From: a virus
Length of the DNA: 21,643 nucleotides
Reading direction: 5' to 3' (one strand)
IMG/VR virus record: IMGVR_UViG_3300031788_000123
Coordinates: 1-21,643 of that record
The notes under the pieces were generated by a model that worked only from the letters and a program-made list of their open reading frames with translations, was not told the DNA's origin and did not search any database. Positions 1 through 21,643 of the stretch are shown here, piece after piece. The translations under genes and the position numbers were made by a program. The number at the start of each line of letters is the position of its first letter. The first letter of the stretch is position 1.

Positions 1-3000
1 GCACCGCAATGCCAGTTTGCTGTTTCAAAGAGTCCAGGATTTCAGCCAGCAATCGCACTGTTGGTGAATTTGAACTCAAGTCGGCATCAAGTTGTTTCTG
101 CTGAACTTCACGAAGATTTTTGTTATGAAGTTTCGCCAATTCGATAAAGTTACCTTTATTGCTGCTTTGGTCCGCCAATTGCTCATTAATACCGCGTTCT
201 TCCGGAACGAATTTATTGGCGTGATCTTTATCGAATGCCGCCTGCTGCTCTTCCTGTTTTTTGTAATCTACCGGAATGGCTGGTTCCGGAGCAGGTTCTG
301 GTGTTGCTTCGGTAGGTTTATCTTCTTTTTTGTCACCGCCTTGTCCAAAACCAAGTGCGTCATAGCCCATCATTAGAAATTGCATACCATCGGCTAGACC
401 TTCCAGGATCGGTGCCGCTGGTGCACCAATGACAGACGCCGCCAAGGCTATTGCCGCAGCATCCATTGCCGCTGATGCTGTGTCTATTGATGCACCGACT
501 TTATCACCACTGGAATATCTTTCCTTTGCGGATACAGCCAACATGGCTATATTGACGCCAGGAATGAACTTTGCTGTGGTTTTTGCGGCTGCTTTTGCAG
601 CGGCTTCTGCGGTGCCGCGTGCAACACTTTTCAGGATTCCTTTTTGTGTCACGTCCTTGATAACGTCTTCGGCAAGCGGCGCCGCTTTCAATGTAGCAGC
701 CTCCGGCACTTTTATGACTTTACTGGCATCGGTCGCGTTACCCGCTATTTCCGCTGTTTTGCCGGTGGCATCCGTTGCGGTTTTCAGTGTTGCATCGGCA
801 GCGCCAGCTACCCTTGCACTTGTGGCGTCAGCCATCTCAGCCGCCTTACCGGTGGCGTCCGTTGTAGTCTTTGCTGTTGCTTTGGCTATATCGGAAGCGC
901 TGCCAACAGCTTCCGTTGTGGTTTTCGTTGTTGCATCGGCAGCGCCAGCTACTCTTGCACTTGTGGCGTCAGCCATCTCAGCCGCCTTACCAGTGGCGTC
1001 TGCTGTAGTCTTTGCTGTTGCTTTGGCTATATCGGAAGCGCTGCCAACAGCTTCCGTTGTGGTTTTCGCTGTTGCATCGGCAGCGCCAGCTACCCTTGCA
1101 CTCGTGGCATCAACCATTTCAGCCGTTTTATCAGCGGCATTCGCTGTTTTGGCGGCGGCGTCATTGGCAGCCGTGCCCATTCCGGAGACTTTTTTAACTG
1201 TTCCAACGATGGCGGTTGTGGCAGCCTTGGCTAATGGAAATACGGAAGCCCCTGCCATAACGAGACCACCAAGATCCTCGACCTTGTCCAAAACGTCTCC
1301 GACGCCAGCCGGACGTGCCGGCTCGCCCTCATCGGCATTGCCGCCGTTGTCATCATCGTCCCGGTCATTATCATCTTTTTCGTCATCCGGTCGTTTTTCT
1401 TTATCTGCCAGTCCCTGTTTTTTTACCCAGCCCTCTCTGGATATGCCATTCATTTGGCTAGCCATCTCAAGGGTCAGCTTGGCGTCAGCGTCTCCTTGGG
1501 ACGCAAGAATTTTTAACGTATCTGCGTGTTCATTAACGTCTTTCTTTATGCGGTCGTAGTACTCGCCTTCGTCTCGAACTTCCGCTGCATGAGCGGAGGA
1601 ACTGGAAGCCACCAAAGCAGCAATTCCGCCAACGCCCAGAAGTGCAGCGCCGTACTTTCCTTTGTTTCGCCCAATATGATCACCAACTCTTTGGCGACCT
1701 GTTCTTCTTGGTCCTTTTTCTTCACGTTGACCGCCGGTTCGACGGCGTTCTTCTTCCTGTTTTTTCTTACGCTCTTTTTCCTCAGGAGTTTCCCGTCTGT
1801 TATCGTCTTCACCACCACCACCACCACTGCCTCCGCTACCCCCATTGACATTTACGACTTGCGCTTTGATATTGACCTTGCGCGCCGACATCCCTAGCAA
1901 ATTGCCAAGAAACGACTTTCCGGCACCGAGCAGGGAACCGATCAGGGACTTCACGAGAAGCCCTCCAGCTATGACCGTCAATCCGGTCAGAAAATCCGCT
2001 TTATGGTTGGGTTTGTCCTTACCGTCCTCACCCTTTTCCGGTGTTATAACACCACTCCAGAAACCATGAATAAAATCAACGATTTTTGCTATAACATCGG
2101 CGGTGACACCGATCCAATGACCCAAGGTCTTGAGATTATCCACAATGCTCGGTAGGTCATCTGTGGCAAAGTCGATAAAGCCTTGAAGAAAGTTTTTAAC
2201 AGCCGTAGCGGCATCAGGCAATTTATCTATAAACTTATCAATAAAATCGCCAGCAGCTTTTATATTTTTAGGTGAGAACGCAGATGCCACGAGGCTTCCA
2301 AATGCGGCCCCCAACCTTGTTGCCACCAGTTTCAGTTTCTCAACGACAGGGGCGATGTTACCAACGCTGCCTTCAACCCCTTGCAATGCTCCGTAGAAGG
2401 CTTCCCTAAACGCGCCGGTTACCGTACTTAGTGCCTCTTCCAATGAGGACATCAGCGCGGTAAACCCTTTCATTGATTCCTGTTTTTTTACCCAGTCCTC
2501 TCTGGATATGCTATTCATTTGCTGAGCCATCTCAAGGACCAGCTTGGCGCCGGCATTTCCTTGCGACGCAAGAATTTTTAACGTATCAGTGTTTTCATTC
2601 GCGGCTTTCTTTATGCGGTCGTAGTATTCGCCTTCGTCTTTGGCATCGAATTTGCCGGTTTTGATTTTGTCAGCCGCATCCTGCATGGCACTCATAATGC
2701 CGGTTGCCCCAACCGATGCAAGTTCCTTGCCCACATCGGTCATCCAAACCAGTCCCAACCCAACAGTCTGTGCCAACCCCTTGGCAAGCATGGCACCGGT
2801 TTCGCCGGGAATGGATGCCATGAACGCAGTCGCCGTGGTCAATGCTTTGGTCTGTGCGTCCGTGAGGTGGGAGTTGACGAGGGATACATCCTGCAATGCT
2901 GCATTCGTTGCCTTCGCTATGTCATCACGGCTTTTGCCTGTCACCGCTGAAAAATCAGAGATGTCTTTGGCAAATTGTGCCACGCTCTTGGATGTCGCGT

Positions 3001-3685
3001 CTTTATTGCGGAATGTTGACGAATTCTGGAGGCGTAATGTTTCAGCGTAATCTCCGGTCAAATCAGCGAGTTGTCCGATTGACATCCCATAGAAACCCAT
3101 GGGGCGCAAACTGTCGCGAACTGATTTTTGCAATGAACCCAATGACCTGCCGGTTTGGGTGTTGCTGTCAGCAAGTACCGCCGCTACGGTGCTGTTTCTT
3201 TTCAGCATTGCGGCAAATTCGTCCAGCGGCAATCCCGCTTCGCCGGCAGAGCGCGCCATTTCCAGCATCGAGCCGCCAAATGTCTGACCGATATCGGTCA
3301 TCTTTTGGTAGCTCTTGGCAAGGTGCATGCTGCCTTCGATCAGGCTGACGAACATGGCTCCGCCAGCAAGACCGGCAACAAACCCCTTCAGACCATGGAT
3401 AACCTCATCAACACCGCCACTGAGGCGTTTAATTGAGTTGGTATAATGATTAATTTGGGCATCAAACTTCGCTATACTGGCGCCGACACGCGTTTTGTGT
3501 TTTTTCGATTCCTTGTCACCAGATCTATAGAGGTCGGCGATTATTTTATCGGCTGCGTACTTATTGCCAGCAGGGTGTTTGGCGTCATTTTTCGAGGCAC
3601 CCATGATCTTCCCAAAGCCGACAAACAACTCCTTGTTGTTTCTGGAGATTGCCGCAACAAGTGAGTCTATTTCGTGTTGTTCCAT
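1..3685 (-). CDS. Tail tape measure protein (partial, C-terminus beyond left edge)
   Basis: The minus frame is open from an ATG at 3685 to the window edge, at least 1228 codons; I checked it codon by codon and found no stop. The protein would fill the tail tube and set its length. It has a polar N-terminus, a hydrophobic stretch near residues 103-122, a long helical region, a hydrophobic Gly/Leu-rich segment near 562-598, and a Gly/Ser linker near 613-626. A Lys/Glu/Arg-rich stretch follows, then a signal-peptide-like Ala-rich segment near 679-703, Ala/Thr-rich tandem repeats near 855-965, and another hydrophobic region near 1030-1110. A 53-residue block at 350-402 recurs at 705-757. Length, repeats, membrane segments and baseplate neighbours are typical of tape measure proteins. 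T4 gp29 is about half this size, and I see no direct gp29 similarity. A candidate late promoter lies 33 nt upstream. Ala-rich open frames on the opposite strand are shadows of this gene. Confidence 0.8.
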   Translation of the reverse strand, partial: MEQHEIDSLVAAISRNNKELFVGFGKIMGASKNDAKHPAGNKYAADKIIADLYRSGDKESKKHKTRVGASIAKFDAQINHYTNSIKRLSGGVDEVIHGLKGFVAGLAGGAMFVSLIEGSMHLAKSYQKMTDIGQTFGGSMLEMARSAGEAGLPLDEFAAMLKRNSTVAAVLADSNTQTGRSLGSLQKSVRDSLRPMGFYGMSIGQLADLTGDYAETLRLQNSSTFRNKDATSKSVAQFAKDISDFSAVTGKSRDDIAKATNAALQDVSLVNSHLTDAQTKALTTATAFMASIPGETGAMLAKGLAQTVGLGLVWMTDVGKELASVGATGIMSAMQDAADKIKTGKFDAKDEGEYYDRIKKAANENTDTLKILASQGNAGAKLVLEMAQQMNSISREDWVKKQESMKGFTALMSSLEEALSTVTGAFREAFYGALQGVEGSVGNIAPVVEKLKLVATRLGAAFGSLVASAFSPKNIKAAGDFIDKFIDKLPDAATAVKNFLQGFIDFATDDLPSIVDNLKTLGHWIGVTADVIAKIVDFIHGFWSGVITPEKGEDGKDKPNHKADFLTGLTVIAGGLLVKSLIGSLLGAGKSFLGNLLGMSARKVNIKAQVVNVNGGSGGSGGGGGEDDNRRETPEEKERKKKQEEERRRTGGQREEKGPRRTGRQRVGDHIGRNKGKYGAALLGVGGIAALVASSSSAHAAEVRDEGEYYDRIKKDVNEHADTLKILASQGDADAKLTLEMASQMNGISREGWVKKQGLADKEKRPDDEKDDNDRDDDDNGGNADEGEPARPAGVGDVLDKVEDLGGLVMAGASVFPLAKAATTAIVGTVKKVSGMGTAANDAAAKTANAADKTAEMVDATSARVAGAADATAKTTTEAVGSASDIAKATAKTTADATGKAAEMADATSARVAGAADATTKTTTEAVGSASDIAKATAKTTTDATGKAAEMADATSARVAGAADATLKTATDATGKTAEIAGNATDASKVIKVPEAATLKAAPLAEDVIKDVTQKGILKSVARGTAEAAAKAAAKTTAKFIPGVNIAMLAVSAKERYSSGDKVGASIDTASAAMDAAAIALAASVIGAPAAPILEGLADGMQFLMMGYDALGFGQGGDKKEDKPTEATPEPAPEPAIPVDYKKQEEQQAAFDKDHANKFVPEERGINEQLADQSSNKGNFIELAKLHNKNLREVQQKQLDADLSSNSPTVRLLAEILDSLKQQTGIAV
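791..1125 (-). repeat. 141-bp tandem repeat in tape measure gene
   Basis: Copies start at 791, 932 and 1073, a period of exactly 141 bp (47 codons). The first two copies are nearly identical and the third is partial and more diverged. The encoded unit is rich in Ala, Thr, Lys and Asp (for example KAAEMADATSARVAGAAD), as expected for a helical or coiled-coil repeat. The period is a multiple of 3, so copy-number change keeps the reading frame and would lengthen or shorten the protein. Confidence 0.9.
1416..1574 (-). repeat. Dispersed in-frame duplication, copy A (partner 2481-2639)
   Basis: This 159-bp block matches 2481-2639 without gaps; I count about 19 differences by hand, roughly 88 percent identity. 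The offset is exactly 1065 bp, or 355 codons. It encodes tape measure residues 705-757, starting DEGEYYDRIKK and ending near SREGWVKKQ. It lies directly after the signal-peptide-like Ala-rich segment. Confidence 0.92.
2481..2639 (-). repeat. Dispersed in-frame duplication, copy B (partner 1416-1574)
   Basis: Encodes tape measure residues 350-402, starting DEGEYYDRIKK and ending SREDWVKKQ. It matches copy A at 1416-1574 without gaps, 355 codons away. Both termini of the unit are well conserved; the central linker positions differ most. Confidence 0.92.
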
Positions 3686-3718
3686 TTGGGAAAATTTACC
3701 ACGCGAAGGTTATAGCAA

Positions 3719-3726
3719 TATTTAGC
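3719..3726 (-). promoter_or_regulatory. Candidate T4-type late promoter box for tape measure gene
   Basis: The minus strand reads GCTAAATA, one mismatch from the last seven bases of TATAAATA. It lies 33 nt upstream of the ATG at 3685, about the same spacing as the plus-strand boxes in this window. The C in place of A at the second position makes it weaker than the others. Confidence 0.4.
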
Positions 3727-3754
3727 CGAAAATAATAGTCCGATATAACTCGCA

Positions 3755-3762
3755 GATAAATA
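3755..3762 (+). promoter_or_regulatory. Candidate T4-type late promoter box for gp26-like gene
   Basis: GATAAATA matches seven of eight bases of the T4 late box TATAAATA, 31 nt upstream of the ATG at 3794. It would be read by RNA polymerase carrying the gp55-type sigma encoded at 10232-11782. An AAAGG ribosome-binding sequence sits between the box and the start codon. Confidence 0.6.
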
Positions 3763-3793
3763 CTACCATTATCCCCCGAAAGGTATTTCTTAG

Positions 3794-4735
3794 ATGTCCA
3801 AACCGTTGAACGATGACTTTGACGAAGACGCTTTGTTTGCCGCAACTGCGGCATCCCGCAAGGCGGTCGGAGCATTGGCGCCCACAGGCAATCCGTTGTT
3901 GAATTTCTACCGGTCTCCTGGCTTGCATGTCTGTTTGCCAACCCGTGGCGCATTCATGCCGCCGGGAACGTTGGAGCAGACTATGGCGAAGGATATTCCG
4001 GTGTTGCCGATGCGGGCGATGGACGAAATCATGCTCAAGAGTCCTGATGCATTGATGTCAGGTTATGCCATTGAAAAACTGCTTGAGTCGTGTGTTCCTG
4101 CCCTGAAGGCACCAAAATTGGTCAGTCTGCCTGATTTGGATGTTTTCCTGTTGGCGATTCGGGCAGCGACCAATGGCGAAAACATGCTGTTGACCGCGTC
4201 TTGTCCGAAATGTGGAACGGACAATGAATTTACCTGTCATCTTCCGGCATTGCTTGCCACGATGACCATGGTGGACCCGGAAAACCCGGTAAGGCTATCG
4301 GATGAGGTGGTGATATATTTGCGTCCTTATAACCTATACAACGCGACAAGTGTTGCCTTGGCATCCTATGAGGAAGCTAGGCGGCTTCAGACGTTTGAGA
4401 ACGAAAACGGCACCGAAGACCCAAGGCGCAAGACCGAAATCAATCGGACCATTGAGCGGCTTGCCAAGCTCAATCTTGAGATGCTTGCTGACTGCATTAT
4501 CAAAGTTGTGGTTCCTGGTGCTGAAGTTACGGACGCTGCACAAATTGGCGGCTTTCTGTTCAACACAAAGAAGTCATGGATTAACAAAATTGAGAAAAAA
4601 CTAAACCAGATTAACGACAAGGGGATTGACAAGACGATTCATGCGAAATGTCAGAACGTTGAATGCAACCATGAATGGAAGACACAGGTGGAGTTCGACC
4701 CCGCAAGTTTTTTCGACGACAACTCCTCGGAGTAA
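3794..4735 (+). CDS. 26: T4 gp26-like baseplate hub protein
   Basis: 313 aa. The central region has the pattern I associate with the gp26 family of T4-like phages: a LPDLDVFLLAIRAAT segment followed by a Cys pair, CPKC at 137-140. A second Cys pair (C286 and C291) with a following His lies near the C-terminus; together they look like a zinc-binding site. The N-terminal third carries the proline-rich LPTRG and LPMRAMDE segments typical of these proteins. It is expected to take part in baseplate hub assembly. The start at 3794 has an upstream AAAGG and a late promoter box. It is first in a plus-strand group and is followed within 20 nt by a small gene, as expected for baseplate genes. Family assignment is from motifs only. 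Confidence 0.75.
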   Translation: MSKPLNDDFDEDALFAATAASRKAVGALAPTGNPLLNFYRSPGLHVCLPTRGAFMPPGTLEQTMAKDIPVLPMRAMDEIMLKSPDALMSGYAIEKLLESCVPALKAPKLVSLPDLDVFLLAIRAATNGENMLLTASCPKCGTDNEFTCHLPALLATMTMVDPENPVRLSDEVVIYLRPYNLYNATSVALASYEEARRLQTFENENGTEDPRRKTEINRTIERLAKLNLEMLADCIIKVVVPGAEVTDAAQIGGFLFNTKKSWINKIEKKLNQINDKGIDKTIHAKCQNVECNHEWKTQVEFDPASFFDDNSSE

Positions 4736-4752
4736 GGACGCATGAAGGGTTC

Positions 4753-4947
4753 GTGAAAATTATCGCTGAATACGGACATGAACGCAAGTCGATACAGAAG
4801 GTCATAACGAGCATTATGTGGCATATGCGTGGTTCGATATCCCGTGATGAGGCATGGTCGCTATGTCATGAGGAACGCGAAATTATTAGCAAGTTTATCG
4901 AAGAACGGATTAAAGTTGTGGAGAAAACCGGTCTGCCGATGATCTGA
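4753..4947 (+). CDS. Small conserved baseplate-cluster protein (64 aa, GTG start)
   Basis: Translation from GTG at 4753 gives 64 aa starting VKIIAEYG. The ATG at 4742 is in another frame and stops after four codons, and the nearest in-frame ATG (4675) lies inside gp26, so GTG is the likely start. An AAGGA overlaps the gp26 stop. The core MWHMRGSISRDEAWSL and a C-terminus rich in Glu/Lys ending TGLPMI resemble short proteins encoded beside gp26 in T4-like phages. In T4, gene 51 (hub assembly factor) neighbours gene 26, but this protein is much shorter than T4 gp51, so equivalence is only suggested by position. Likely a helical assembly factor translated with gp26. Confidence 0.6.
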   Translation: MKIIAEYGHERKSIQKVITSIMWHMRGSISRDEAWSLCHEEREIISKFIEERIKVVEKTGLPMI

Positions 4948-4954
4948 AAAAGGC

Positions 4955-4983
4955 TTGACACGTGCGTTTTGGCTGGTTATGAA
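4955..4983 (+). promoter_or_regulatory. Host-type sigma70 promoter candidate
   Basis: A perfect TTGACA (4955-4960) is followed after 17 bp by TATGAA (4978-4983), 4 of 6 to the -10 consensus. The predicted transcription start falls at or next to the ATG at 4990, so the transcript would have no or almost no leader. Confidence 0.5.
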
Positions 4984-4989
4984 GTCCGA

Positions 4990-5199
4990 ATGAGCGATAA
5001 TCTTGTTCTTGAGCACCTGCGTGCCATTCGTGGGGACCTTGCCGGGCTGAAGGTTGACATGTCCGAGGTCAAAGAACGGCTGGGCTTATTGGAGGCGCAG
5101 TACTCCAGCATATCACGCCGCACTGATCGCATTTCCGGCGACATCGAACACATCAAGCGTCGGCTGGACATTGTGTCGGTGGATGATCTTTCGTCGTGA
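4990..5199 (+). CDS. Small coiled-coil protein, possible host-acquired cargo gene
   Basis: 69 aa from ATG 4990 (MSDNLVLEHLRAIRGDLAGLK). An upstream in-frame TTG at 4969 would add seven residues, but it lies within the promoter spacer. The whole protein is amphipathic helix with heptad-like hydrophobic spacing (L..I...L..L....SEVKERL..LE), probably a coiled coil. Short proteins starting with this kind of sequence are, from memory, common in alphaproteobacterial genomes; their function is unknown to me. It has its own host-type promoter, no clear Shine-Dalgarno sequence, and sits between late structural genes, which fits a gene acquired from the host and expressed independently. Confidence 0.6.
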   Translation: MSDNLVLEHLRAIRGDLAGLKVDMSEVKERLGLLEAQYSSISRRTDRISGDIEHIKRRLDIVSVDDLSS

Positions 5200-5225
5200 C
5201 AGATTAAGCCTAGTTAACAATAATA

Positions 5226-5233
5226 TATAAATA
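5226..5233 (+). promoter_or_regulatory. Exact T4-type late promoter box TATAAATA
   Basis: All eight bases match the T4 late promoter consensus. It lies 29 nt upstream of the nuclease ATG at 5263, in an AT-rich gap between genes. It predicts late, gp55-dependent expression of the nuclease. Confidence 0.75.
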
Positions 5234-5262
5234 GTCGGACATTTAAATATGGACGGTTATGT

Positions 5263-5793
5263 ATGGCAGGCAGTAAATCATCCCGCAAAGGCGGAGTTGG
5301 TGAACGCGAATTATGCAAAATTCTCGGCGATATATTTGAAGGCAAATTCCTGAGGTCTCCGCAATCAGGCGCCTTCATCGGAGGGCAGAACGCTCGGCGG
5401 AAAACAGTAATGTCAGTGGGGCAAATTCAAAGCCGCAAGGGAGATATTGTTCCGCCTGACCATATGCTACGCCTCGTGATTGAAATGAAAAATTTCTCAA
5501 AATTCTTATTTCATCAACTTATATCGCCGGGGTCATGTCCGCAGCTTGATGAATGGATTAAACAGACCCTTGACGTGGTTGATCCCGGTGATTGCTGGCT
5601 GGTATGTTTTAAAGTCACACGTGTCGGACTTTTTGTAGCCATCCCAAAATCACATGGCATGGTTATTGCTTATAGCAATCATTGCGTGTATCGTGGATTA
5701 TACGGTGATTTTATCATTACGGACCTGAAAACATTCTTTCAGGACAACCGTGCCGCAATTCTTGCGGCGACGATGACGGCAAGAACGCCCTAG
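5263..5793 (+). CDS. PD-(D/E)XK nuclease, probable Holliday-junction resolvase
   Basis: 176 aa. Candidate active-site residues come in the order expected for the PD-(D/E)XK fold: E14 in GVGERE, D61 in RKGDIVPPD, and E74-x-K76 in VIEMKN. An RSPQSGAF segment at residues 31-38 resembles the R-x-x-x-SG element of Hjc-type resolvases. The N-terminal basic stretch could contact DNA. Resolving branched DNA before packaging is the likely role; T4 does this with the unrelated endonuclease VII, which is also made late, matching the exact TATAAATA box upstream. It converges with the ERF gene, the two stops being one base apart. An alternative is a restriction-type or repair endonuclease of the same fold. 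Confidence 0.6.
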   Translation: MAGSKSSRKGGVGERELCKILGDIFEGKFLRSPQSGAFIGGQNARRKTVMSVGQIQSRKGDIVPPDHMLRLVIEMKNFSKFLFHQLISPGSCPQLDEWIKQTLDVVDPGDCWLVCFKVTRVGLFVAIPKSHGMVIAYSNHCVYRGLYGDFIITDLKTFFQDNRAAILAATMTARTP

Positions 5794-5794
5794 C

Positions 5795-6772
5795 TTATTG
5801 CCAGGGCGCCGGCTGTGGACCGCCATGTCCATTGTTGCCGTTGGGCTCCTTGATGACCGCCGCATCCTTTGCCTTCGCCCGATTCAGCAGAATGTTTTTG
5901 TGCGCAGCGAAAGCGGCAACGATACGGTCGTACCGTTCCTTGTCCGCTGTCTTGATATGTCCCAACGCGCGCTGGTTCGTTGCCCAGATTTCTTCGAGCT
6001 TGCCGACCGTCACCGATGCGCGCATACGCTTGCAGATGTTCATCTCGAAGTTGTTGAACTTGACTTTCTGCGCCTGTGCACCCTCAGCCACCATCCGGTT
6101 AGCCCGGTCCACGTCAGGCTCAAACCCATGCTCTTGGTCTGATGGCGGCGCCAAATTCTCGCAATAGTCAGACGGAAGCGCTGGACGTGTGGCGTTTGCA
6201 TACCGTGTTGCGTTTGCCGGCGCCTTCAGGTACTTGCCACGTGTTTGCTGAAACCGACTGTTGTCAAGGGCATCCTGATCCGCCTCTTCAGTCGGAATTT
6301 TGAACGCGGAGCGCATGAACGCCTTGTCAGCATAAGAGATGACCGACAGGCTCGTCTGTGCACCGATAATTTGGTGAATCAGCGTGAACGTCATGTAGCC
6401 ACGGATAACCGTTCCATCGCGATAGCGAAGGTCAACCGAAACGTCCGTGAGCAGCATCGCCTTGTCGCCGTCCGCGTTCTTCCCCCCAGTGATTTCAATC
6501 GGGCGCGGATTGCAGTTATGGGCAATCCACTGGATGCCATGTTTCGCGGCAATCGGCACAACCTTTTGATAGAATTGGTCGATGCTGGCGAAATTGAAGT
6601 TGCCGAAACTATTTCGCTGGTCACGGGCAAGCGTGCCAACTTCCTCACGGATTGCCTCCACAGCGGCAAACACCTCAGCATTGACCGACTTTGCCACAGG
6701 CTCTTCCGCCGCTACATCCACCAGTTCAGCTTCGACTGGCGGTTCGGAGGCTGACTTATTGTTTTGGCTCAT
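5795..6772 (-). CDS. ERF-family single-strand annealing protein
   Basis: 325 aa from the ATG at 6772 (MSQNNKSASEPP), chosen because GAGGG and AGGAG lie just upstream; an in-frame ATG at 6811 would add 13 residues. After an acidic, Ala/Glu-rich N-terminus the ERF-type domain spans roughly residues 28-185, with FGNFNFASIDQFYQKVVPIA, a predicted beta region around TDVSVDLRYRDG, and IGAQTSLSVISYADKAFMRS. ERF proteins bind single-stranded DNA and promote annealing during phage recombination. The C-terminal half is charged and of unclear fold. It lies 68 nt downstream of gp46, in the same direction, so it probably belongs to the same operon. T4 itself relies on the RecA-like UvsX; whether this phage also has UvsX cannot be seen here. 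Confidence 0.72.
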   Translation of the reverse strand: MSQNNKSASEPPVEAELVDVAAEEPVAKSVNAEVFAAVEAIREEVGTLARDQRNSFGNFNFASIDQFYQKVVPIAAKHGIQWIAHNCNPRPIEITGGKNADGDKAMLLTDVSVDLRYRDGTVIRGYMTFTLIHQIIGAQTSLSVISYADKAFMRSAFKIPTEEADQDALDNSRFQQTRGKYLKAPANATRYANATRPALPSDYCENLAPPSDQEHGFEPDVDRANRMVAEGAQAQKVKFNNFEMNICKRMRASVTVGKLEEIWATNQRALGHIKTADKERYDRIVAAFAAHKNILLNRAKAKDAAVIKEPNGNNGHGGPQPAPWQ

Positions 6773-6840
6773 GATTTTACCCTCTCTCCTGCTACCTACG
6801 GAGAAGAACACAAAACAGAGGCTTTGGCAAGAGATTTCCG

Positions 6841-9141
6841 CTAACTCTTCGCGTTAGCCTCAAACCTGCTGAATTGATTTTCCATATGAACTTTCAGTAA
6901 GTTATCGGCAATACCAATGAGGCATTCCTTATGGGAAATCAAAAAAACATTTTTCGATCGCTCACGCCCCATCCGGTTCAAAACGCCAAACGTCAATTCG
7001 GCGCCATTGTCATCCATGCCAGCGTCAGCCAGTTCGTCAATGAACATCAGATTGACCGTCGTATTCAGTTTTTCCCAGACATCACGGAATGCCCATGATG
7101 TGGCAAGGGTCACCCGGTTCATTTCGCCACGGGATAACTGATTAAAATCAAGCCCGCGTCCAAGCCGTGTGATTTCCACCGACAAATCCGGCATGAACGT
7201 GACCTCGTGCGGGAGCATCAACGCTTCAAGATAATGATTGAGCCGCCGGTTAAGGTCCAGCAAATTGGTGTCAATAATCTTCTTCCGAATGAAGCTTTCC
7301 TTGCCGGACAGCAACTTGTGGATAAAATCCATGTGCTTAAGCTGGTCCTGAAGTTCGGTTAGAACGGTATAATCAATTTCAACGATGGCGCTCCGCAATG
7401 ACGCAATGTTGGCGTTCTGAGGATTTTCTTTCGCCATCTCATGCTCAAGGTCACGCATTGCCGTTTCCATGCTCTGACGCAAACGCCATACCTCTTCACG
7501 GACATTAAACCGGACAGTCGGCTTGGGACCGAGATTCTGAATGGATTTGATGATATCCCGTTCAACGGCTTCCCGCTCACTGATGGCAACGCCGAGCATG
7601 GCACGGTCATCGTCCAACTGGGCAATCGTCTGCTCCACTTCCGCCTGCCGCTTTGCCAGATGTTTCCGTGCCCTGGCAATCTCGCCCTCAATGGCGGCAG
7701 CCTTGGACCGCCATTCTTCCTGTCGAACGGCATACTGTGCCACCACCTGCCCGATTTCGGCACGTATCTGCACAGCTTTGTTGCGCCAGCCTTCCTGAGC
7801 GGTCTTGTGTTCAGCAGCCAGCCTGCCCGTCTCCGTCTCAATTTCCCCGGCTTCGGCCTGCAGTTTTTCGGCGATGGCAACGTCATGAACACTTGCCGCC
7901 TCAAGGTCAGCAACTTTCTCCGCCAGCTTTGCCACAACCTTGGCAAGGTGATCAGTGCCATTAAGTCCCTGTCCGCATGTCGAGCAGGTATGATCGGTTT
8001 TGGTCATCTCCGTTTGCAGGAATGCCATCTCGGCAGCTTTGGTTTTGGTGGAAGCCATTCTCTGTTCAGCTTCCTGACTTTTGCGTTTGGCGTCAGACAG
8101 CATCCGAGCCAGTTGGTTGTCAATGCTGGACACCGCCTGTTCATCAAACCGCCTTGCCTCAGCCTCCAGACGGGCTGCCTGATGGTCGGTGGCAGGGCTG
8201 CTGGCGTCCTTCAGATAGCGGGCTGCCTCGCCCTCCAGACGCCGTATTTGGTCATCTGACGAGCCAGCATCCATTTTAAGACGGGTTTGCTCTGACACAA
8301 TCTTGGCAAGCTCACGACGCAAAAGGTCGGTTTCCTTTCCCTCCCCTTCCGCCGCGCCAAGCAACTGTCTTTCCTGTTCGATCCAGGCATCAAGCGTGTC
8401 AAAGGCGGCAATTTCAGCAGCAAAATCAATACCGGACCATTCCGTTACCTGTGCTGTTATCCGACTGACAGCGATGTTATGGGCTATGAGCCACGCGTCA
8501 CGCTCCGCTGAAGCACGCTGGATGGCAACTTCGATGCGCCCGTTGGCTTCGGTGGTCGCCTTGAGGGAAGCGTCCTCGGCACGCGTTTGTTCCTTGATAT
8601 CTGAAATCATTTTCTTCAGCGCTTCGTCGCGCTGCGACAGCGTCATGATACCAAGCAATTCCTCAATCACTTCACGTTGCTGTGCCGGCTTCATTTTAAG
8701 GAACGGGTCAGTATAGGTACTGAGCGCGACGATATGCTGGAATAGCGTATGGCTCATACCGATGATGGCGTTAATCTCGGTTTGGGTATGGCGGTTTTCG
8801 CCCAGGGCGGCATCTGTGGGGACGCCGTTGGCATCAAAGACCAACATATGCAGCACGTTCGGCTTACGTCCACGTTCGATGCGGTAGCGCATGCCGTCGC
8901 GTTCCAGATCAACACCAACGAGCATGTTTTTCAGGTTGATATTGTTAATCAGGTTGTCGAGGTTGATATTGGTTAACGGCTCTCCATAAATCCCGTAGGA
9001 CAGCGCCTGTAGCATGGCGGTTTTGCCGTGTCCGTTGTTGCCAAGCACCAGCGTCAGAAAGTCGGCGTCCAGACGGATAGCCTGTGTGGCGTTGCCGACC
9101 GACCAAAAATTACGCATGTCGAGACCGAGAATTTTGGTCAT
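6841..9141 (-). CDS. 46: gp46-like recombination nuclease subunit (Rad50/SbcC ATPase)
   Basis: 766 aa. The N-terminus has a Walker A loop at 34-41 (GNNGHGKT), followed by a long coiled coil with a zinc-hook CSTC near residues 385-388. The C-terminal half carries the ABC signature (LSRGEMNRV, near 665) and Walker B (LMFIDELADAG, near 697). This is the layout of Rad50/SbcC/gp46 ATPases, which work with Mre11/gp47 to resect DNA ends. T4 gp46 is about 560 aa, so the coiled coil here is longer. The start codon overlaps the gp47 stop as ATGA, so translation is probably coupled, as expected for subunits of one complex. Several long open frames on the plus strand here are shadows. Confidence 0.92.
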   Translation of the reverse strand: MTKILGLDMRNFWSVGNATQAIRLDADFLTLVLGNNGHGKTAMLQALSYGIYGEPLTNINLDNLINNINLKNMLVGVDLERDGMRYRIERGRKPNVLHMLVFDANGVPTDAALGENRHTQTEINAIIGMSHTLFQHIVALSTYTDPFLKMKPAQQREVIEELLGIMTLSQRDEALKKMISDIKEQTRAEDASLKATTEANGRIEVAIQRASAERDAWLIAHNIAVSRITAQVTEWSGIDFAAEIAAFDTLDAWIEQERQLLGAAEGEGKETDLLRRELAKIVSEQTRLKMDAGSSDDQIRRLEGEAARYLKDASSPATDHQAARLEAEARRFDEQAVSSIDNQLARMLSDAKRKSQEAEQRMASTKTKAAEMAFLQTEMTKTDHTCSTCGQGLNGTDHLAKVVAKLAEKVADLEAASVHDVAIAEKLQAEAGEIETETGRLAAEHKTAQEGWRNKAVQIRAEIGQVVAQYAVRQEEWRSKAAAIEGEIARARKHLAKRQAEVEQTIAQLDDDRAMLGVAISEREAVERDIIKSIQNLGPKPTVRFNVREEVWRLRQSMETAMRDLEHEMAKENPQNANIASLRSAIVEIDYTVLTELQDQLKHMDFIHKLLSGKESFIRKKIIDTNLLDLNRRLNHYLEALMLPHEVTFMPDLSVEITRLGRGLDFNQLSRGEMNRVTLATSWAFRDVWEKLNTTVNLMFIDELADAGMDDNGAELTFGVLNRMGRERSKNVFLISHKECLIGIADNLLKVHMENQFSRFEANAKS

Positions 9142-10166
9142 ATCTCGGTCAACTGACGGTAAATAGCAACAAGTTTATCTGTCGAGAGCCCTGTGCCATC
9201 GATGGACATCAGCCCATCGATTACCATCTGGTCAACCGTATGGAAGACCACTGTTTCGTCATTGAATTCCTGGAGTTCCGCGCTGTCTTTTGGTTGTTTC
9301 ATCAGTTCCATCTTCCGCAGTCCGTATGTCTCAACCAGAGAATCACGGATTTCCTGAGCTTCCTCATAGATCAGGGGAAGGTCAATGGTGGTGCGGATGG
9401 TCATTTTCGGATGCATGATTCCTGGCGTGTCGATCAATTCAGAGAGTTTGGCTTCCTTGAACAGGGGCTGGTCCGGCCACGCCTCAAAAATCGGTTCTTT
9501 TCCCCAATCCAGGAGCATGATGCCGCGATCTTCATCATTCGAATCCGAAAAATTCATGGGCATAATTGCACCCATATAAATCACTTTGCCCTGTTTCTGG
9601 CGCTTGTGGTAATGCCCCGAAAATACGTATTCTGTATTGAGAAATTGATCGGGTTTCACCAGGGTTGGGCTATCGGGCATGATAATGCGGGCGTTCATCA
9701 GGAATCCCGGCATTTCCAGATGTCCAAACACATAACGGCTGTTGATGTTCTTGATACTTTTGTATTCATCGCCAACAAGCCATGGCAACAGGGTTACATT
9801 TCCTGTGGTAAGCGGGTCACGGATGAATTCGATATTGCTGAGATTGCGGCCAAATTCAATGCTGGCACCATCCCGCTTTTCTCTAAAGGGCAGGTCGTGA
9901 TTTCCGGAAAGCCAATAGGTTTTCTTGAAGGACGAATTCAGCAGTTCCATTCCGGCTAGGGAATGTGGAAGAACGGTCGTCCTTATATTATGCCGGCTAT
10001 CGTGCCAATCTCCCAGGAAAATGCAATTTTCCGCACCCCATGACAAAGCGCGGTCAACTGCCCATTGTAGGAAATCAGTGTTGTCCTGCAATGCGATGGG
10101 GCTTGCGCCATTTCGTCCAAAATGCGCGTCGGTAAATGCGACCGTTTTCCTGAACAAATTCTCCAT
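9138..10166 (-). CDS. 47: gp47-like recombination nuclease subunit (Mre11/SbcD)
   Basis: 342 aa, close to the T4 gp47 length of about 339. The metal-binding motifs of calcineurin-type phosphoesterases are present in order: D13-x-H15 (FTDAHFGRNG), GDWHDSRH with D53, GNHD at 88-91, GHLEMPG, and GHYHKR. It is the nuclease partner of gp46 in end resection and recombination-dependent replication. The gene overlaps gp46 by four bases and lies 65 nt downstream of the sigma factor gene on the same strand. Confidence 0.92.
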   Translation of the reverse strand: MENLFRKTVAFTDAHFGRNGASPIALQDNTDFLQWAVDRALSWGAENCIFLGDWHDSRHNIRTTVLPHSLAGMELLNSSFKKTYWLSGNHDLPFREKRDGASIEFGRNLSNIEFIRDPLTTGNVTLLPWLVGDEYKSIKNINSRYVFGHLEMPGFLMNARIIMPDSPTLVKPDQFLNTEYVFSGHYHKRQKQGKVIYMGAIMPMNFSDSNDEDRGIMLLDWGKEPIFEAWPDQPLFKEAKLSELIDTPGIMHPKMTIRTTIDLPLIYEEAQEIRDSLVETYGLRKMELMKQPKDSAELQEFNDETVVFHTVDQMVIDGLMSIDGTGLSTDKLVAIYRQLTEI

Positions 10167-10231: not shown

Positions 10232-11782
10232 TTAGACCTTTGGTTTACGTCCCCGCTTTTTTGGCAACAAGACCGGCTCTACCTTCGGAAGCCCGTCATC
10301 GTCACCGCCGTCGAGTATCCGTTGCTCAAACATCTGTTCGAGTTCATGGTCGATCTGACGGGTAAAGGACGGCGCGGCGCCCGCCATAATAAGCAAATCA
10401 TCACGGATATCGCGGTTCCGGTGTTCAATGTTCAGCACTCTCCGAAAGCAATTTTTGATGATCTGAGTGTAAAACGCAAAAGGATTGTCTGACTTTGATT
10501 CATCAAACTGTAATCCGACTTTTGACAGTTGCAACAACGAAAAACTGCGCATTTCGTCCACATAGGTGTTGCCTGTCAGATAGATAGTTCCATTGCGCAT
10601 TGCCATGAACGACCCATATTCCGTTTTGGGACACCACACCTTGGCGTGATAATCAGTGGTTGGTTCATTTGGATGGTCAAAATCACCGTTCCGCTTGCCA
10701 CCGGCGAAATCAATTTTTTCAACCTTAATAGACTTTTCTTGTGCTGATAACCTGTTGATTTCAAAATAAGTATCGGTTTTTTTGATTGAAACCCGATAAC
10801 CGGCTATGGTGCAGAGCATCAGAACAGCATCAATATGTTCTTTATTTGAGTGTTTATATCGGTTAGTAAAAGTGAATATTGCCCCTATCAAAAGTTGCCT
10901 TTGATGTTGGGTTAAAGAAAGCACAACGGGAAAATCAATAAGTTCTGGAATCACCTTAATCTTATCATCAACGAAACCAGGACCGTTTTCCAGCGGTGCC
11001 CCGGTCAAAATTATTCTGTCTGTCGCCAACAGGTAATCAACTTCCTTGAGACCGCCGTCTGTGACGAACTTATGCCGTGGTGTAACCAGCGCATCCATTC
11101 CGGTGACACTGAGCTTGAACATCTTGCCTTTATAGTCATCGTCTCTGAAAATAGATTCAATCTTCGACCATTTTAGCTGCCCGTTATCGTATGACAGGAT
11201 AATATCTCTTTCTGTGATATCGTCAGTACCCAGCCAACCGCGTTGTGTAAGTGCTTTGGTTTCCCCATCCACGCAATAGGACCGCCAGTTACTGCGCCTG
11301 CTAAAGCGGTCAACCAACAGCATAAACATGCTTGCCAAACGGTTATTAATTGTGCCATGTTCGTCACAGAAGCGACCAGCTTCGAGTGTACCTATCCAAT
11401 GGGAGCGACCGACTTCAACGGCAATGCCATCGCGGATGACATAATGCTCAAATGGTGGAAATGACGTCCGAATGGTCGGAAAACCGCGTTTCAGGCGCTT
11501 GGCACAAGTTTCCAATGGAACATGCCGGTCGGTCATGAGTCTGAATATAAGGTCAGCGGGAGCAAACGTGTCTGGCAATTCCGTGGTATTGCCTCTTTTG
11601 GTCAGGGAGGACGTTTGCCTTTCAAAGGTTTGTTCGATAAATTCAGGCGTCAATTCGTCCAAAGACCGGATAATGGCGTCAAAACGGTGATAACTCTTGT
11701 CCGTGAATGAACTGTAGGTTATTTTGGAACGGTGTATTTCCTGAAGCAGGTCTTTATTCGAAATATATTTTATTCTATCCAT
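10232..11782 (-). CDS. 55: gp55-like late sigma factor interrupted by an intein
   Basis: 516 codons; removing the intein (residues 170-405) leaves a 280-aa sigma factor. The N-terminus (IKYISNKDLLQEIHRSK) resembles the T4 gp55 start. Around the splice junction, LASMFMLLVDRFSRRSNWRSY joins TYVDEMRSFSLLQLSKVGLQ, then FDESKSDNPFAFYTQIIKNC, which follows sigma region 2 as in T4 gp55 (185 aa from memory). It would direct RNA polymerase to TATAAATA-type late promoters. About 100 extra residues (roughly 25-140) lie between the conserved N-terminal motif and region 2. The C-terminus ends in a basic KKRGRKPKV tail instead of an obvious clamp-binding motif. AAGGAG lies 11 nt upstream of the ATG. The gene starts a minus-strand block leading into gp47, gp46 and ERF. 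Confidence 0.82.
   Translation of the reverse strand: MDRIKYISNKDLLQEIHRSKITYSSFTDKSYHRFDAIIRSLDELTPEFIEQTFERQTSSLTKRGNTTELPDTFAPADLIFRLMTDRHVPLETCAKRLKRGFPTIRTSFPPFEHYVIRDGIAVEVGRSHWIGTLEAGRFCDEHGTINNRLASMFMLLVDRFSRRSNWRSYCVDGETKALTQRGWLGTDDITERDIILSYDNGQLKWSKIESIFRDDDYKGKMFKLSVTGMDALVTPRHKFVTDGGLKEVDYLLATDRIILTGAPLENGPGFVDDKIKVIPELIDFPVVLSLTQHQRQLLIGAIFTFTNRYKHSNKEHIDAVLMLCTIAGYRVSIKKTDTYFEINRLSAQEKSIKVEKIDFAGGKRNGDFDHPNEPTTDYHAKVWCPKTEYGSFMAMRNGTIYLTGNTYVDEMRSFSLLQLSKVGLQFDESKSDNPFAFYTQIIKNCFRRVLNIEHRNRDIRDDLLIMAGAAPSFTRQIDHELEQMFEQRILDGGDDDGLPKVEPVLLPKKRGRKPKV
10568..11275 (-). other. Intein within gp55 (236 codons, C170 to N405)
   Basis: The first residue is C170 in the context RSY|CVDGETKALTQRGWLGTDDI, a typical N-terminal splicing block. 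TPRHKF near 234-239 matches block B with its conserved Thr and His. The C-terminal end has a block F-like VWCPKTEYGSFMAMRNGTIY, then LTGN|T with terminal Asn 405 and extein Thr 406. The penultimate residue is Gly, where many inteins have His; the NG-x-I-x-x-TGN form is one I associate with other phage inteins. Residues about 288-345 (SLTQHQRQLLIGAIF through IAGYRVSIKK) look like a shortened or decayed LAGLIDADG region. Splicing would rejoin the flanks as RSY-TYVDEM. Confidence 0.9.
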
Positions 11783-19034: not shown

Positions 19035-20594
19035 TCAGGCGAGCCGTTCAACGACCACCGTGCCAGCCATGACGACCCCAGTCGCATTGCTGGCGCCTGT
19101 GGCGGAATTGACATTGTTGTCGCCGATAGTCCCAAGCGACGTCCAGGACGTGGTGGTGTCATTCCAGGTGGCGAAGGACATTGCCGGACCGCCAAAGATG
19201 CCGCCGGTTGCCTTGACCGTTTTTGCGGCAGTAAAGGTGCTGATAAGGTATTCCAGCGACCATGGACCGGTGCCGTTCATGCCTGAACCAGTGTCGGAGG
19301 TGTTTGGTCCATTGAACGTGTCGTGCCAGAAATAGGGAAGGGTGTCTATGACAGCCCATGTGGTGCCAATGCCGTTGGACGCAAGATAGGGAGGTGCGGT
19401 GATGGGCGTCCACACCCCACCGGAAGTTCCGACACCGGTAAGCGACTGGTCGGTGCACGCCATGCCAAATGAGCTAAACGAATTGATATAGGTCATGTCG
19501 TTCGGCTTCAGCGTAACATCAACATTAACGCTATTGGTTGACGTTATGATAACCGTAACCTTGTATATCCCAGGCTGTGATGCGACGTGCATCGGGATGG
19601 CATTTGCGTTGGTAACGGTAATGATTAATTTGTCCCCTGGTAATATTGGTATTGCCGTGACTGGCGGAGCCGAAGTGCTGAAGGAATATAGTCCTCCTAC
19701 GTTTAGTGATTTTACAAAGGCGGTTGTAGCGACATTGGTGGAATTGTCGGCTACCGGCATGGTTGGGGCGGTGAGGGCGGTTGACACAATCATCGTGGCA
19801 ACCGAGACGAAACCGGATGCCCGGTTGATGGTCAACGGCGTGTCAATCAGTATTCCAGTGTCAGCGAAGCGGATGATGGTAAAATTCGAACCGCTGTTGC
19901 TGCCGGTTTCCGGATAGGAGGTGACACCAATGCCCCACCGTGTCAGACCGGACGTGTCAAACTGCACATCACGCACGCTACCCGCAGGACCATCGACCAC
20001 AAAATTGGTCACAATGTGATTGCCGATTGGCGTAAACCCGAGAGCGGACGTGATGTCACCCTGCGACAGAACCCGTACCGCCGTTACCAAGCCCTTGGCA
20101 TTGACAGTGAGGTTATTATATTTTCCAGCGGTAACGCCATTCGGATTGAGTGTAAGCGTAATGGCTGTGGTTCCGGAGCCGCTGGCGTCGCCAGTCACCT
20201 TAATCATTTGATTGGCGGAGGTATAGCCCTGCCCGGTAACCCACGCCTGTGTGGCATAACCACTGAGTGCGGCGCTGTTGGCGCTCTGTGAGAATTGCAA
20301 CACCCAATCCTGGGTGGCAAGCGAAGTCCAGTTGGCGTTGTCGTAAATCTTCAACAAGCCATTGCCACTGTCATACCAAAGCTGTCCAGTCAGTGGCGGT
20401 GTGGCTATGCCCCATTGCGGTGCAATCGGGCCGCAGGCGTTTTCCAGCAGTCTGACAAAGTTGTTGCCAATGATTGCACCCCAGTCTTTATAGGCACGCC
20501 CCACCAAGGTCAATGACGTGGCGGTCGTATTGACGGTGAGATCATCAATTTGCGCAATTTGCGTGCCTTGCGTATTGGTTATCAAATATGCCAT
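19035..20594 (-). CDS. Tail fibre or baseplate-attached fibre protein
   Basis: 519 aa. The first 80 or so residues (MAYLITNTQGTQIAQIDDLT, then LLENACGPIAP and GQLWYDSGNGLLKIYD) form a virion-attachment type domain also found in the next gene upstream (20618-21067). The middle contains TVNAKGLVTAVRVLSQGDIT and PVADNSTNVATTAFVKS, both typical of trimeric phage fibre shafts. The C-terminal 200 residues are Thr/Ser/Gly-rich beta sequence, probably the host-contacting tip. I see no chaperone domain. It lies 23 nt downstream of its paralogue in the same direction. Its convergence with the spike gene is tight and shows no terminator hairpin. Confidence 0.75.
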   Translation of the reverse strand: MAYLITNTQGTQIAQIDDLTVNTTATSLTLVGRAYKDWGAIIGNNFVRLLENACGPIAPQWGIATPPLTGQLWYDSGNGLLKIYDNANWTSLATQDWVLQFSQSANSAALSGYATQAWVTGQGYTSANQMIKVTGDASGSGTTAITLTLNPNGVTAGKYNNLTVNAKGLVTAVRVLSQGDITSALGFTPIGNHIVTNFVVDGPAGSVRDVQFDTSGLTRWGIGVTSYPETGSNSGSNFTIIRFADTGILIDTPLTINRASGFVSVATMIVSTALTAPTMPVADNSTNVATTAFVKSLNVGGLYSFSTSAPPVTAIPILPGDKLIITVTNANAIPMHVASQPGIYKVTVIITSTNSVNVDVTLKPNDMTYINSFSSFGMACTDQSLTGVGTSGGVWTPITAPPYLASNGIGTTWAVIDTLPYFWHDTFNGPNTSDTGSGMNGTGPWSLEYLISTFTAAKTVKATGGIFGGPAMSFATWNDTTTSWTSLGTIGDNNVNSATGASNATGVVMAGTVVVERLA

Positions 20595-20617: not shown

Positions 20618-21067
20618 TCAGAACATTCGCTGAATATAACATAGTGATGTCGGCAAGTTTGCCGTGCCTTTGGTTCCGTCACACAGATGAAAGCGGTATG
20701 GTATCGTGGCCGGGGTTCCTGACCAGATAATAATTCCACCTAAAGGCACAGCGATTTGATTGGCGGCAACTTGCTGACTAACCCACGGCTGTGTCGCTAG
20801 CGGCGTCCACGGTGGTGAAGTTGTCTGATCATACTGGTTTAATGTCGCTGCTGGTTTGTTATACCAAAGCTGTCCAATGATAGGCGATGTGGGTGCGGCA
20901 ACGCTGCTAAAATTTTCCAACATTCCAACCAAATTGTCGTTTAATATCTCTCCGAATCCCGAGAAATAGTGTCCAATGAGCGTAATTGGAAGTGCAGTGG
21001 CATTGACCGTGTAATCTTCGACGGTGGCAATTAATTGATTGTTTGTGTTTGTGATGACGTAACTCAT
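20618..21067 (-). CDS. Short tail collar/fibre protein, possibly truncated
   Basis: 149 aa. The N-terminal 75 residues (MSYVITNTNNQLIATVEDYT, LLWYNK-type GQLWYNKP) are paralogous to the fibre protein downstream. They are followed by a collar-type segment, PLGGIIIWSGTPATIPYRFH with LCDGTKGTANL. Collar domains usually continue for tens of residues after the CDGT-GT-NL motif; here it ends after 12 more residues (TSLCYIQRMF). It could be a naturally minimal collar or a remnant. No convincing Shine-Dalgarno sequence precedes the ATG at 21067, and an iscB-associated palindrome lies 11 bp upstream, so its original leader may have been replaced. Confidence 0.65.
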   Translation of the reverse strand: MSYVITNTNNQLIATVEDYTVNATALPITLIGHYFSGFGEILNDNLVGMLENFSSVAAPTSPIIGQLWYNKPAATLNQYDQTTSPPWTPLATQPWVSQQVAANQIAVPLGGIIIWSGTPATIPYRFHLCDGTKGTANLPTSLCYIQRMF

Positions 21068-21127: not shown

Positions 21128-21643
21128 CTATGCATAACATCTCCATGAATTATATGTCAGGAGTTTGCAGTCAGCCGGCGTGGCTCCTTGCGTCAAACGT
21201 TTTCCCGTCTTGATTCCGTGCAAACTTATTCTGTCTTTTGAATTACCACCTATATAGGCTACACCATACTTCGGGTGCTTCACCAAGCTGCCTCTGGTGA
21301 ACCCAAGGCTCCTTGTGCTGCCATAGGGTCTCCGACAGCCACCCTTTTCCGGTTGCAGGCGATGCAACTGCCGACGATGGAACTGCAAAGGAACCACAAA
21401 TTTCAACTCGGTGTTGTCCGGTTTGGTATGTCCTCCAACCAGCCAATTGGCAAGGACCCAGGAATCAACGCAATGCGCTTCAAATACAGGAGCCATCTTG
21501 CTCTTGGTTTTGGACAAACCGTGCGTATCTCGTAAATCTTTGGTTTGCCATCCTTCCAACAAATGAACAAAACCAATTTGCTCCAACTGGTCGTAAAACC
21601 ACTGCTTGCCAATTTGTAGCGGTGAGAATGACTTGTCCCAACG
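21128..21643 (-). CDS. iscB: IscB RNA-guided nuclease, C-terminal part (5' end beyond right edge)
   Basis: 171 codons are open from the window edge to a TAG at 21128; the in-frame TTG at 21586 is not a likely start because matching sequence continues upstream (SFSPLQIGKQWFYDQ). The pattern fits the IscB/ISC C-terminus: GWQTKDLRDTHGLSKTK, FEAHCVDSWVLANW with the RuvC-III AHxxD motif, PLQFHRRQLHRLQPEKGG, RSLGFTRGSLVKHPKYG and TGKRLTQ near the end. IscB proteins are Cas9 relatives with split RuvC and HNH domains and use an omega-RNA as guide. HNH, RuvC-I/II, the arginine-rich start and any omega-RNA (usually encoded 5' of iscB) lie outside the window, so activity cannot be judged. Confidence 0.88.
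   Translation of the reverse strand, partial: RWDKSFSPLQIGKQWFYDQLEQIGFVHLLEGWQTKDLRDTHGLSKTKSKMAPVFEAHCVDSWVLANWLVGGHTKPDNTELKFVVPLQFHRRQLHRLQPEKGGCRRPYGSTRSLGFTRGSLVKHPKYGVAYIGGNSKDRISLHGIKTGKRLTQGATPADCKLLTYNSWRCYA

Follow-up and report, generated by a model that had tools for sequence, protein, structure and literature searches.

The described systems closest to the gene studied here are the RNA-guided nucleases IscB and IsrB. IscB proteins such as OgeuIscB (7xht) and HfmIscB (9k2z) have the same layout as IsrB, with PLMP, bridge helix, RuvC and an omega-RNA, and differ from it in an HNH domain that lies between RuvC-II and RuvC-III. DtIsrB (8DMB), as described in PMC9581776, is a protein of ~350 aa with a RuvC domain split by the bridge helix, a short linker of 19 residues in the HNH position, a TAM-interacting C-terminus, a long upstream omega-RNA and a right-flank motif of the type NTGA, and these traits recur in the element and protein family reported below; the same source describes IsrB as nicking the non-target strand. 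The present element differs from DtIsrB in residing at several sites of what is probably a jumbo phage, and the copy under study is incomplete and of putative activity.

Three further precedents concern the behaviour of such elements. In the laboratory, a host isrB jumped into phage Mic1 at ATGA together with flanks of 207 bp (upstream) and 59 bp (downstream) (gp49; PMC11237433), which resembles the short-flanked, ATGA-associated isrB found here; that event, as presented, was a single fresh insertion breaking a gene, whereas here several sites are occupied, two of them exactly at start codons. IsrB is also described as multicopy in Borg elements (PMC12660748). The plasmid-borne IS200/IS605 gene drive based on TnpB (PMC11870625) resembles our proposal in its insertion-site guide and its selection against empty copies, but TnpB, in that account, makes double-strand breaks, whereas IsrB makes one-strand nicks. 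In the open-access literature, a scope that does not extend to the original HEARO (2009), ISC and OMEGA papers, we found neither a phage-resident multi-site IsrB nor a bridge across a ribosome site of the kind discussed below. Among the relatives placed in the proposed ancestry of Cas9, IsrB is the smallest, and its natural role has been little tested. HEARO elements have already been noted as preceding ATGA or GTGA, and the ATGA part of our results is therefore not claimed as new.

Identity of the nuclease gene

The window, that is, the whole stretch of DNA analysed, is a complete virus record of 21,643 bases, and the feature under study occupies its last 516 bases. Profile searches (Pfam and PHROGs) identified genes for a late sigma factor, a T4-type baseplate, a hub/lysozyme and an Erf-like protein, in agreement with the phage origin assumed in a preliminary description of this DNA; a comparison of the window with the phage collection by megablast returned no match. 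The parts of the window required for the argument are as follows.

21128–21643, minus strand: 3' part of isrB, 171 aa, comprising the end of the RuvC-II/III linker, RuvC-III, the TAM-interacting domain and the stop codon
21068–21127, minus strand: right end of the element, which extends from just past the isrB stop as far as its final base, 21068, and is common to L008, L009/L012 and L010
21078–21118, minus strand: right-end stem-loop, whose outer stem CGCGGC/GCCGCG encloses an inner hairpin
21064–21067, minus strand: ATGA at the right end, fitting the IsrB TAM NTGA and providing the start codon of the fibre-like gene
20618–21067, minus strand: tail-fibre-like gene, whose ATG abuts the element; weak PHROGs matches
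19035–20594, minus strand: second fibre/spike-like gene; tail spike family match (PHROGs, 3e-11)

The contig stops inside isrB at 21643, and the 5' half of the gene is missing; the contig does not reach RuvC-I, the bridge helix, PLMP, the omega-RNA or the left end of this copy, and the stop codon is at 21128(-). The 171-aa fragment contains a RuvC-III motif (AHCVDS) and a TAM-interacting C-terminus homologous to that of DtIsrB. It matched phrog_32617 in PHROGs (3e-18) and, as the single match in a PDB search, IsrB 8dmb (1e-8, residues 3–162); Pfam and NCBIfam searches of the fragment gave no match. By tblastn it was related to eight phage records, namely six Microcystis phage records, a 485-kb uncultured phage (60%) and one cyanophage, as well as to 12 cyanobacterial plasmid records, and several of the relatives are annotated as RRXRR proteins.

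The family assignment was decided by the relatives. A profile built from six of them (A1) matched IsrB 8dmb over its whole length (1e-48), its matches to IscB structures being mostly confined to the N-terminal half. RRXRR was present and HNH absent in all five full-length relatives scanned with Pfam, and the ORFs of the full-length relatives (at most 74% identity) are mostly of 330–360 aa among 149 loci. Where HfmIscB has ~108 residues, the IsrB profile has ~16, and by alignment the window fragment starts ~3 residues into the DtIsrB linker (161–179), its visible remainder being devoid of HNH. An insertion within the first linker residues, beyond the contig end, would escape this comparison. 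Judged by this domain content, the window ORF is an IsrB, of the HNH-less nickase type, and not an IscB. The preliminary description had named it the C-terminal RuvC-III part of an IscB; the RuvC-III motif and the assignment to the guide-RNA nuclease genes stand, and the IscB identity is rejected on the missing HNH and the whole-length match to 8dmb. Its refuting condition, by which an upstream part without HNH would mark a decayed fragment, does not apply, because IsrB naturally lacks this domain.

Two other window genes deserve mention. The frame at 2–3685(-) encodes a tape-measure-like protein with Ala/Thr-rich repeats (TTDATGKAAEMADATSARVAGAADAT...). The late sigma factor gene at 10232–11782(-) (phrog_12791, 7e-65) is interrupted at about 10571–11281 by an insert of ~237 aa that starts with CVDGETKALT and finishes near GTIYLTGN; the insert has an intein-like look, with a weak NCBIfam intein-containing match (0.003), and a Pfam search of it found no intein domain.

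The element end and its copies

Downstream of isrB, the 73-nt stretch around the right-end stem-loop has a predicted folding energy of -30.2 kcal/mol. Two viral contigs, L008 and L009, start in the last isrB codons and match the window at 99% identity across 125 (L008) and 126 (L009) bases; all three diverge at one point, after ...GCAGAAAAACG/ATGA (the slash marks the element end). An exact scan of viral contigs for the right end returned three, which were L008 (as L011), L009 (as L012) and L010, the last having 90 bp in common with the window at 98.9% and diverging right after ...AAAACG/ATGA. The element stops exactly before ATGA in all four right ends (window, L008, L009/L012 and L010), which agrees with the published IsrB TAM, NTGA (PMC9581776). 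This ATGA provides a start codon in two of the four, the window and L010; that of L008 opens a short frame only, and that of L012 seemingly lies, by eye, near the end of an interrupted gene.

The L010 element is 125 bp long (11150–11274), begins with the left end GTCAATTACCCC..., finishes with the same right end and contains no isrB; from this structure it is an internally deleted copy. It directly abuts the stop codon of a DnaB-like helicase gene on one side and, on the other, the ATGA that opens the next frame. A scan of viral contigs for the left end returned L010 and L013, which have the first 40 bases in common, and in L013 the left end leads into the omega-RNA before the contig ends. Elsewhere in L010 there is a cluster of direct and inverted repeats (4983–5404), and a separate 43-bp piece (3884–3926) recurs in L013 at 97.7%.

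Contig G001 (3300029922_000331) is 100% identical to window positions 1–9192 and finishes with an element end of its own, close to which lie a major capsid gene and a homing-endonuclease-family gene. The complete match combined with the different element sites indicates one phage species carrying the element at at least two sites, seen on two separate contigs and, by arithmetic, ~33 kb apart and in opposite directions. The element lies near a DNA polymerase gene in L012 and behind the DnaB-like helicase gene in L010; L013 carries a tail sheath gene. The 4-mer correlation with the window was 0.85–0.91 for L010, L012 and L013 and 0.88 for the G001 piece, compared with 0.10–0.68 for six other loci, and Phosso or Atu_ph07 were the best phage relatives both for one window protein and for proteins of L010, L012 and L013. 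By composition and kinship, these three contigs, which do not overlap the window, probably come from the same phage, which is probably a jumbo phage related to Phosso/Atu_ph07. In L008, the homing-endonuclease-family gene (629–2362(-); phrog_3339, 8e-100) is flanked by the second isrB copy and the major capsid gene, so that two kinds of nuclease-bearing element adjoin in the same phage.

The contigs of the window, G001 and L012 all end inside isrB, as would also be seen if a host isrB had been joined onto the end of a phage contig by misassembly. Against this, four phage contigs have clean and distinct junctions after an identical element end, always at ATGA, and contig breaks inside a multi-copy sequence are expected assembly behaviour; we regard such an artefact as highly improbable.

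The sites also bear on the role suggested in the preliminary description, namely a homing nuclease of the IscB kind, which would either spread fibre alleles linked to it or target competing phages. The gene does sit just before a fibre-like gene, and the logic of a guided nuclease would indeed direct it against empty alleles. The position beside tail-fibre genes, however, stood only in part: the gene at 19035–20594 matches a tail spike family, and the matches of the adjacent gene at 20618–21067(-) are weak (phrog_1800 tail collar fibre, 5e-4; phrog_14394 virion protein, 2e-8). Moreover, the protein is of the IsrB type, the same element end is found near capsid, DNA polymerase and helicase genes, and fibre families were found downstream of none of 20 other viral copies. 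The genes downstream of these 20 copies comprise two for baseplate hubs, one each for head, DNA polymerase, thymidylate kinase, replication, anti-restriction-like, Ren-like and unknown-function families, and 11 without any match. A special link to fibre genes is thus rejected, and the fibre-linked nuclease appears quite unlikely as a whole. Since the same end recurs at capsid, DNA polymerase and helicase sites, the element is instead a mobile element settled at several sites, whose movement we infer from its copies. As a separate observation, the N-termini of the two fibre-like genes, 19035–20594(-) and 20618–21067(-), are alike (xxITNT...D.TVN.TA..), which suggests a repeated adaptor or a duplication.

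The wider family was surveyed with the A1 profile, which gave 64 viral loci and from which the best 80 of 120 genomic relatives were taken; the scan for viral isrB used two peptide patterns. Among the 149 loci with a tblastn match, the right-end structure was located in 66, and removal of seven near-identical ones left 59, a set in which the false structures L031, L004 and L110 are counted as misses and the plasmid loci L003 and L004 as cellular. Of the 28 viral and 31 cellular right ends (the latter from the best 80 of 120), 25 and 27, respectively, have ATGA within the next 22 nt, compared with 1,619 of 17,084 control windows (9.5%). A frame of 50 codons or more starts at this ATGA in 19/25 viral and 20/27 cellular cases, against 32.6% of control ATGAs. 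The left-end pattern GTCAA...CC-hairpin-GGCTTG was located in 69 of 145 loci, and viral copies on the same contig align from exactly GTCAA onward (L063/L064, 89%; L068/L072, 88%). These copies belong to large phage contigs (L063/L064 and L065/L068/L069/L072/L073) that carry two or three isrB copies at different sites with 88–89% identity.

Guide RNA and the proposed mobilisation and retention of the element

The omega-RNA of the phage group is represented by L013, in which positions 6712–6890 match HEARO (RF02033) from model position 1 with 38.6 bits (E 6e-7 when 201 bases were searched). The closest full-length relative, L015, scored 28.5 bits. Both scores are below the Rfam gathering score of 83, HEARO being seen in searches of small stretches, and a search of Rfam at the gathering threshold returned no match. 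An alignment of 20 upstream regions contained 35 pairs in six helices, with changes on both sides in 27 of the 35, and 94.8% of the helix cells were paired, versus 34–41% after the partners had been slid. From this covariation, full-length relatives have a HEARO/omega-RNA upstream of isrB, and the conserved RNA that the preliminary description had sought 5' of the gene is present in them.

The TnpA gene that it had also sought was not found beside isrB in any of 50 virus records. PF01797 exceeded the cut-off in nine of these, the nearest ~6.5 kb from isrB, and in none of the five phage-group contigs G000–G003 and G006; two TnpA loci, L158 and L160, have no isrB-type left end by the same pattern. 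The element has defined ends, subterminal hairpins and several sites, as IS200/IS605 elements do, and contains no TnpA, and for this reason we call it non-autonomous and of the IS200/IS605 type rather than a full member; as no TnpA adjoins isrB either, we propose mobilisation in trans.

The properties of IS200/IS605 elements used in the following are general background, as is the role of the 5' end of the omega-RNA as the guide. We consider it quite probable that the window contains the end of a non-autonomous isrB element of this type, occupying several sites in a jumbo myovirus, moved by TnpA in trans and kept in place by its guide. The complete element would consist of a left end GTCAAYTACC-hairpin-GGCTTG, the omega-RNA, isrB and the right-end hairpin, followed by the target ATGA. 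Supplied in trans, TnpA would carry it from one ATGA site to another in the form of single-stranded DNA. As guide, the omega-RNA would take the sequence to the left of the element, with the ATGA on the right as the motif; since the element itself holds the guide side and the motif side apart, only empty copies would be targeted. Presumably, IsrB would nick empty sister or co-infecting phage genomes, in which the left flank is joined to ATGA, and the nick would favour recombination that copies the element back. From the anatomy of guide and TAM, we infer that what is retained or spread by homing is the element and not fibre alleles. Exact searches at four flanks for empty or alternative alleles returned nothing beyond the known contigs, and 46 guides (14 nt) combined with NTG[AG] gave no match among all loci collected.

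The phage could alternatively have domesticated IsrB as a fixed regulator or as a nickase against competitors, with mobility lost. Several viral copies, such as L020, L041 and L066, have no right end recognisable by eye, and viral IsrBs cluster on a tree of 127 rows (53 viral and 74 cellular, left from the 149 loci after duplicates, broken frames and short pieces had been dropped), in which the viral and cellular labels change 6 times versus 40.9 when shuffled, a clustering on an unrooted tree to which near-copies and the search design contribute. Within this sample, phage copies thus form lineages of their own more than they represent fresh pick-ups from hosts. With an unrooted tree and sampling bounded by the search, we do not argue for phages as an older IsrB reservoir. 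The phage group of the window, however, has intact, nearly identical ends at several sites and an internally deleted derivative, which points to recent movement, and we consider domestication unlikely. With the mobile element as the preferred reading, its multi-copy phage genomes, deleted copy and clear motif offer a system for measuring retention, homing and transposition in trans.

A candidate ribosome-site bridge

The association of the right end with start codons raises the matter of how the gene behind the element is translated. The left flanks of 35 loci contained a match to the anti-Shine–Dalgarno (SD) sequence of -5 kcal/mol or below in 40%, versus 17% of neighbouring windows (p 2e-4), and empty sites would thus often be ribosome sites. 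With the element in place, the 20 bases ahead of AUG reached -5 kcal/mol in 21% of 56 loci, the number left after exclusion of L002, L004, L028, L029, L031, L110 and loci without [AG]TG[AG] within 22 nt; the cluster counts and those at -4.5 kcal/mol given below rest on the same exclusions. When the right-end hairpin was looped out, the same value was reached in 66% of the 56 loci, compared with 20.7% of random joins, the idea of a bridge having been formed on the same sequences on which these motifs were counted. Among viral clusters (80% identity), the motif was present at the hairpin foot in 20/24, against 0/24 when the cut was moved by 12 nt and 2/24 when read directly; cellular clusters gave no clear signal in the same test (looped, 5/11; cut moved by 12 nt, 2/11; direct, 5/11). 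At a cut-off of -4.5 kcal/mol, a match was present in 23 of 27 viral elements; ordinary viral frames had one in 50% of cases and random viral windows in 23%.

The motif can coincide with the end of isrB itself. AGG encodes the arginine of the terminal Trp-Arg pair in 23 of the 36 viral genes and 12 of the 56 cellular genes, compared with 11.4% for other arginines. In L024, L026, L034 and L047, the hairpin-foot motif is distinct from this codon pair, an argument for selection acting at the RNA level. Thus, folding of the hairpin could set TGG AGG, with which isrB ends, or an AAGGAGG close by at the proper distance from the next AUG, and might in this way restore translation of a gene separated from its own ribosome site. 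We tentatively propose, as somewhat more doubtful than probable, that phage isrB elements insert between SD and ATG(A) and have evolved an SD bridge at the hairpin foot that makes them neutral for translation. Alternatively, GGAGG could be a guide sequence for the transposase or the partner of CCTCC inside the right end. An SD motif is missing from both the window element (-0.9) and its sister L015 (+0.4).

If the bridge holds, such translation-neutral elements could accumulate in gene-dense phage genomes, and it would explain how a transposon settles at start codons of compact genomes without silencing their genes. At eight cellular right ends (L003, L080, L096, L100, L105, L114, L127 and L130), the tail from hairpin to ATG is longer, 14–16 nt, and several of these tails contain GGAG-like motifs, a direct SD match being present in four of the eight at -4.5 kcal/mol.
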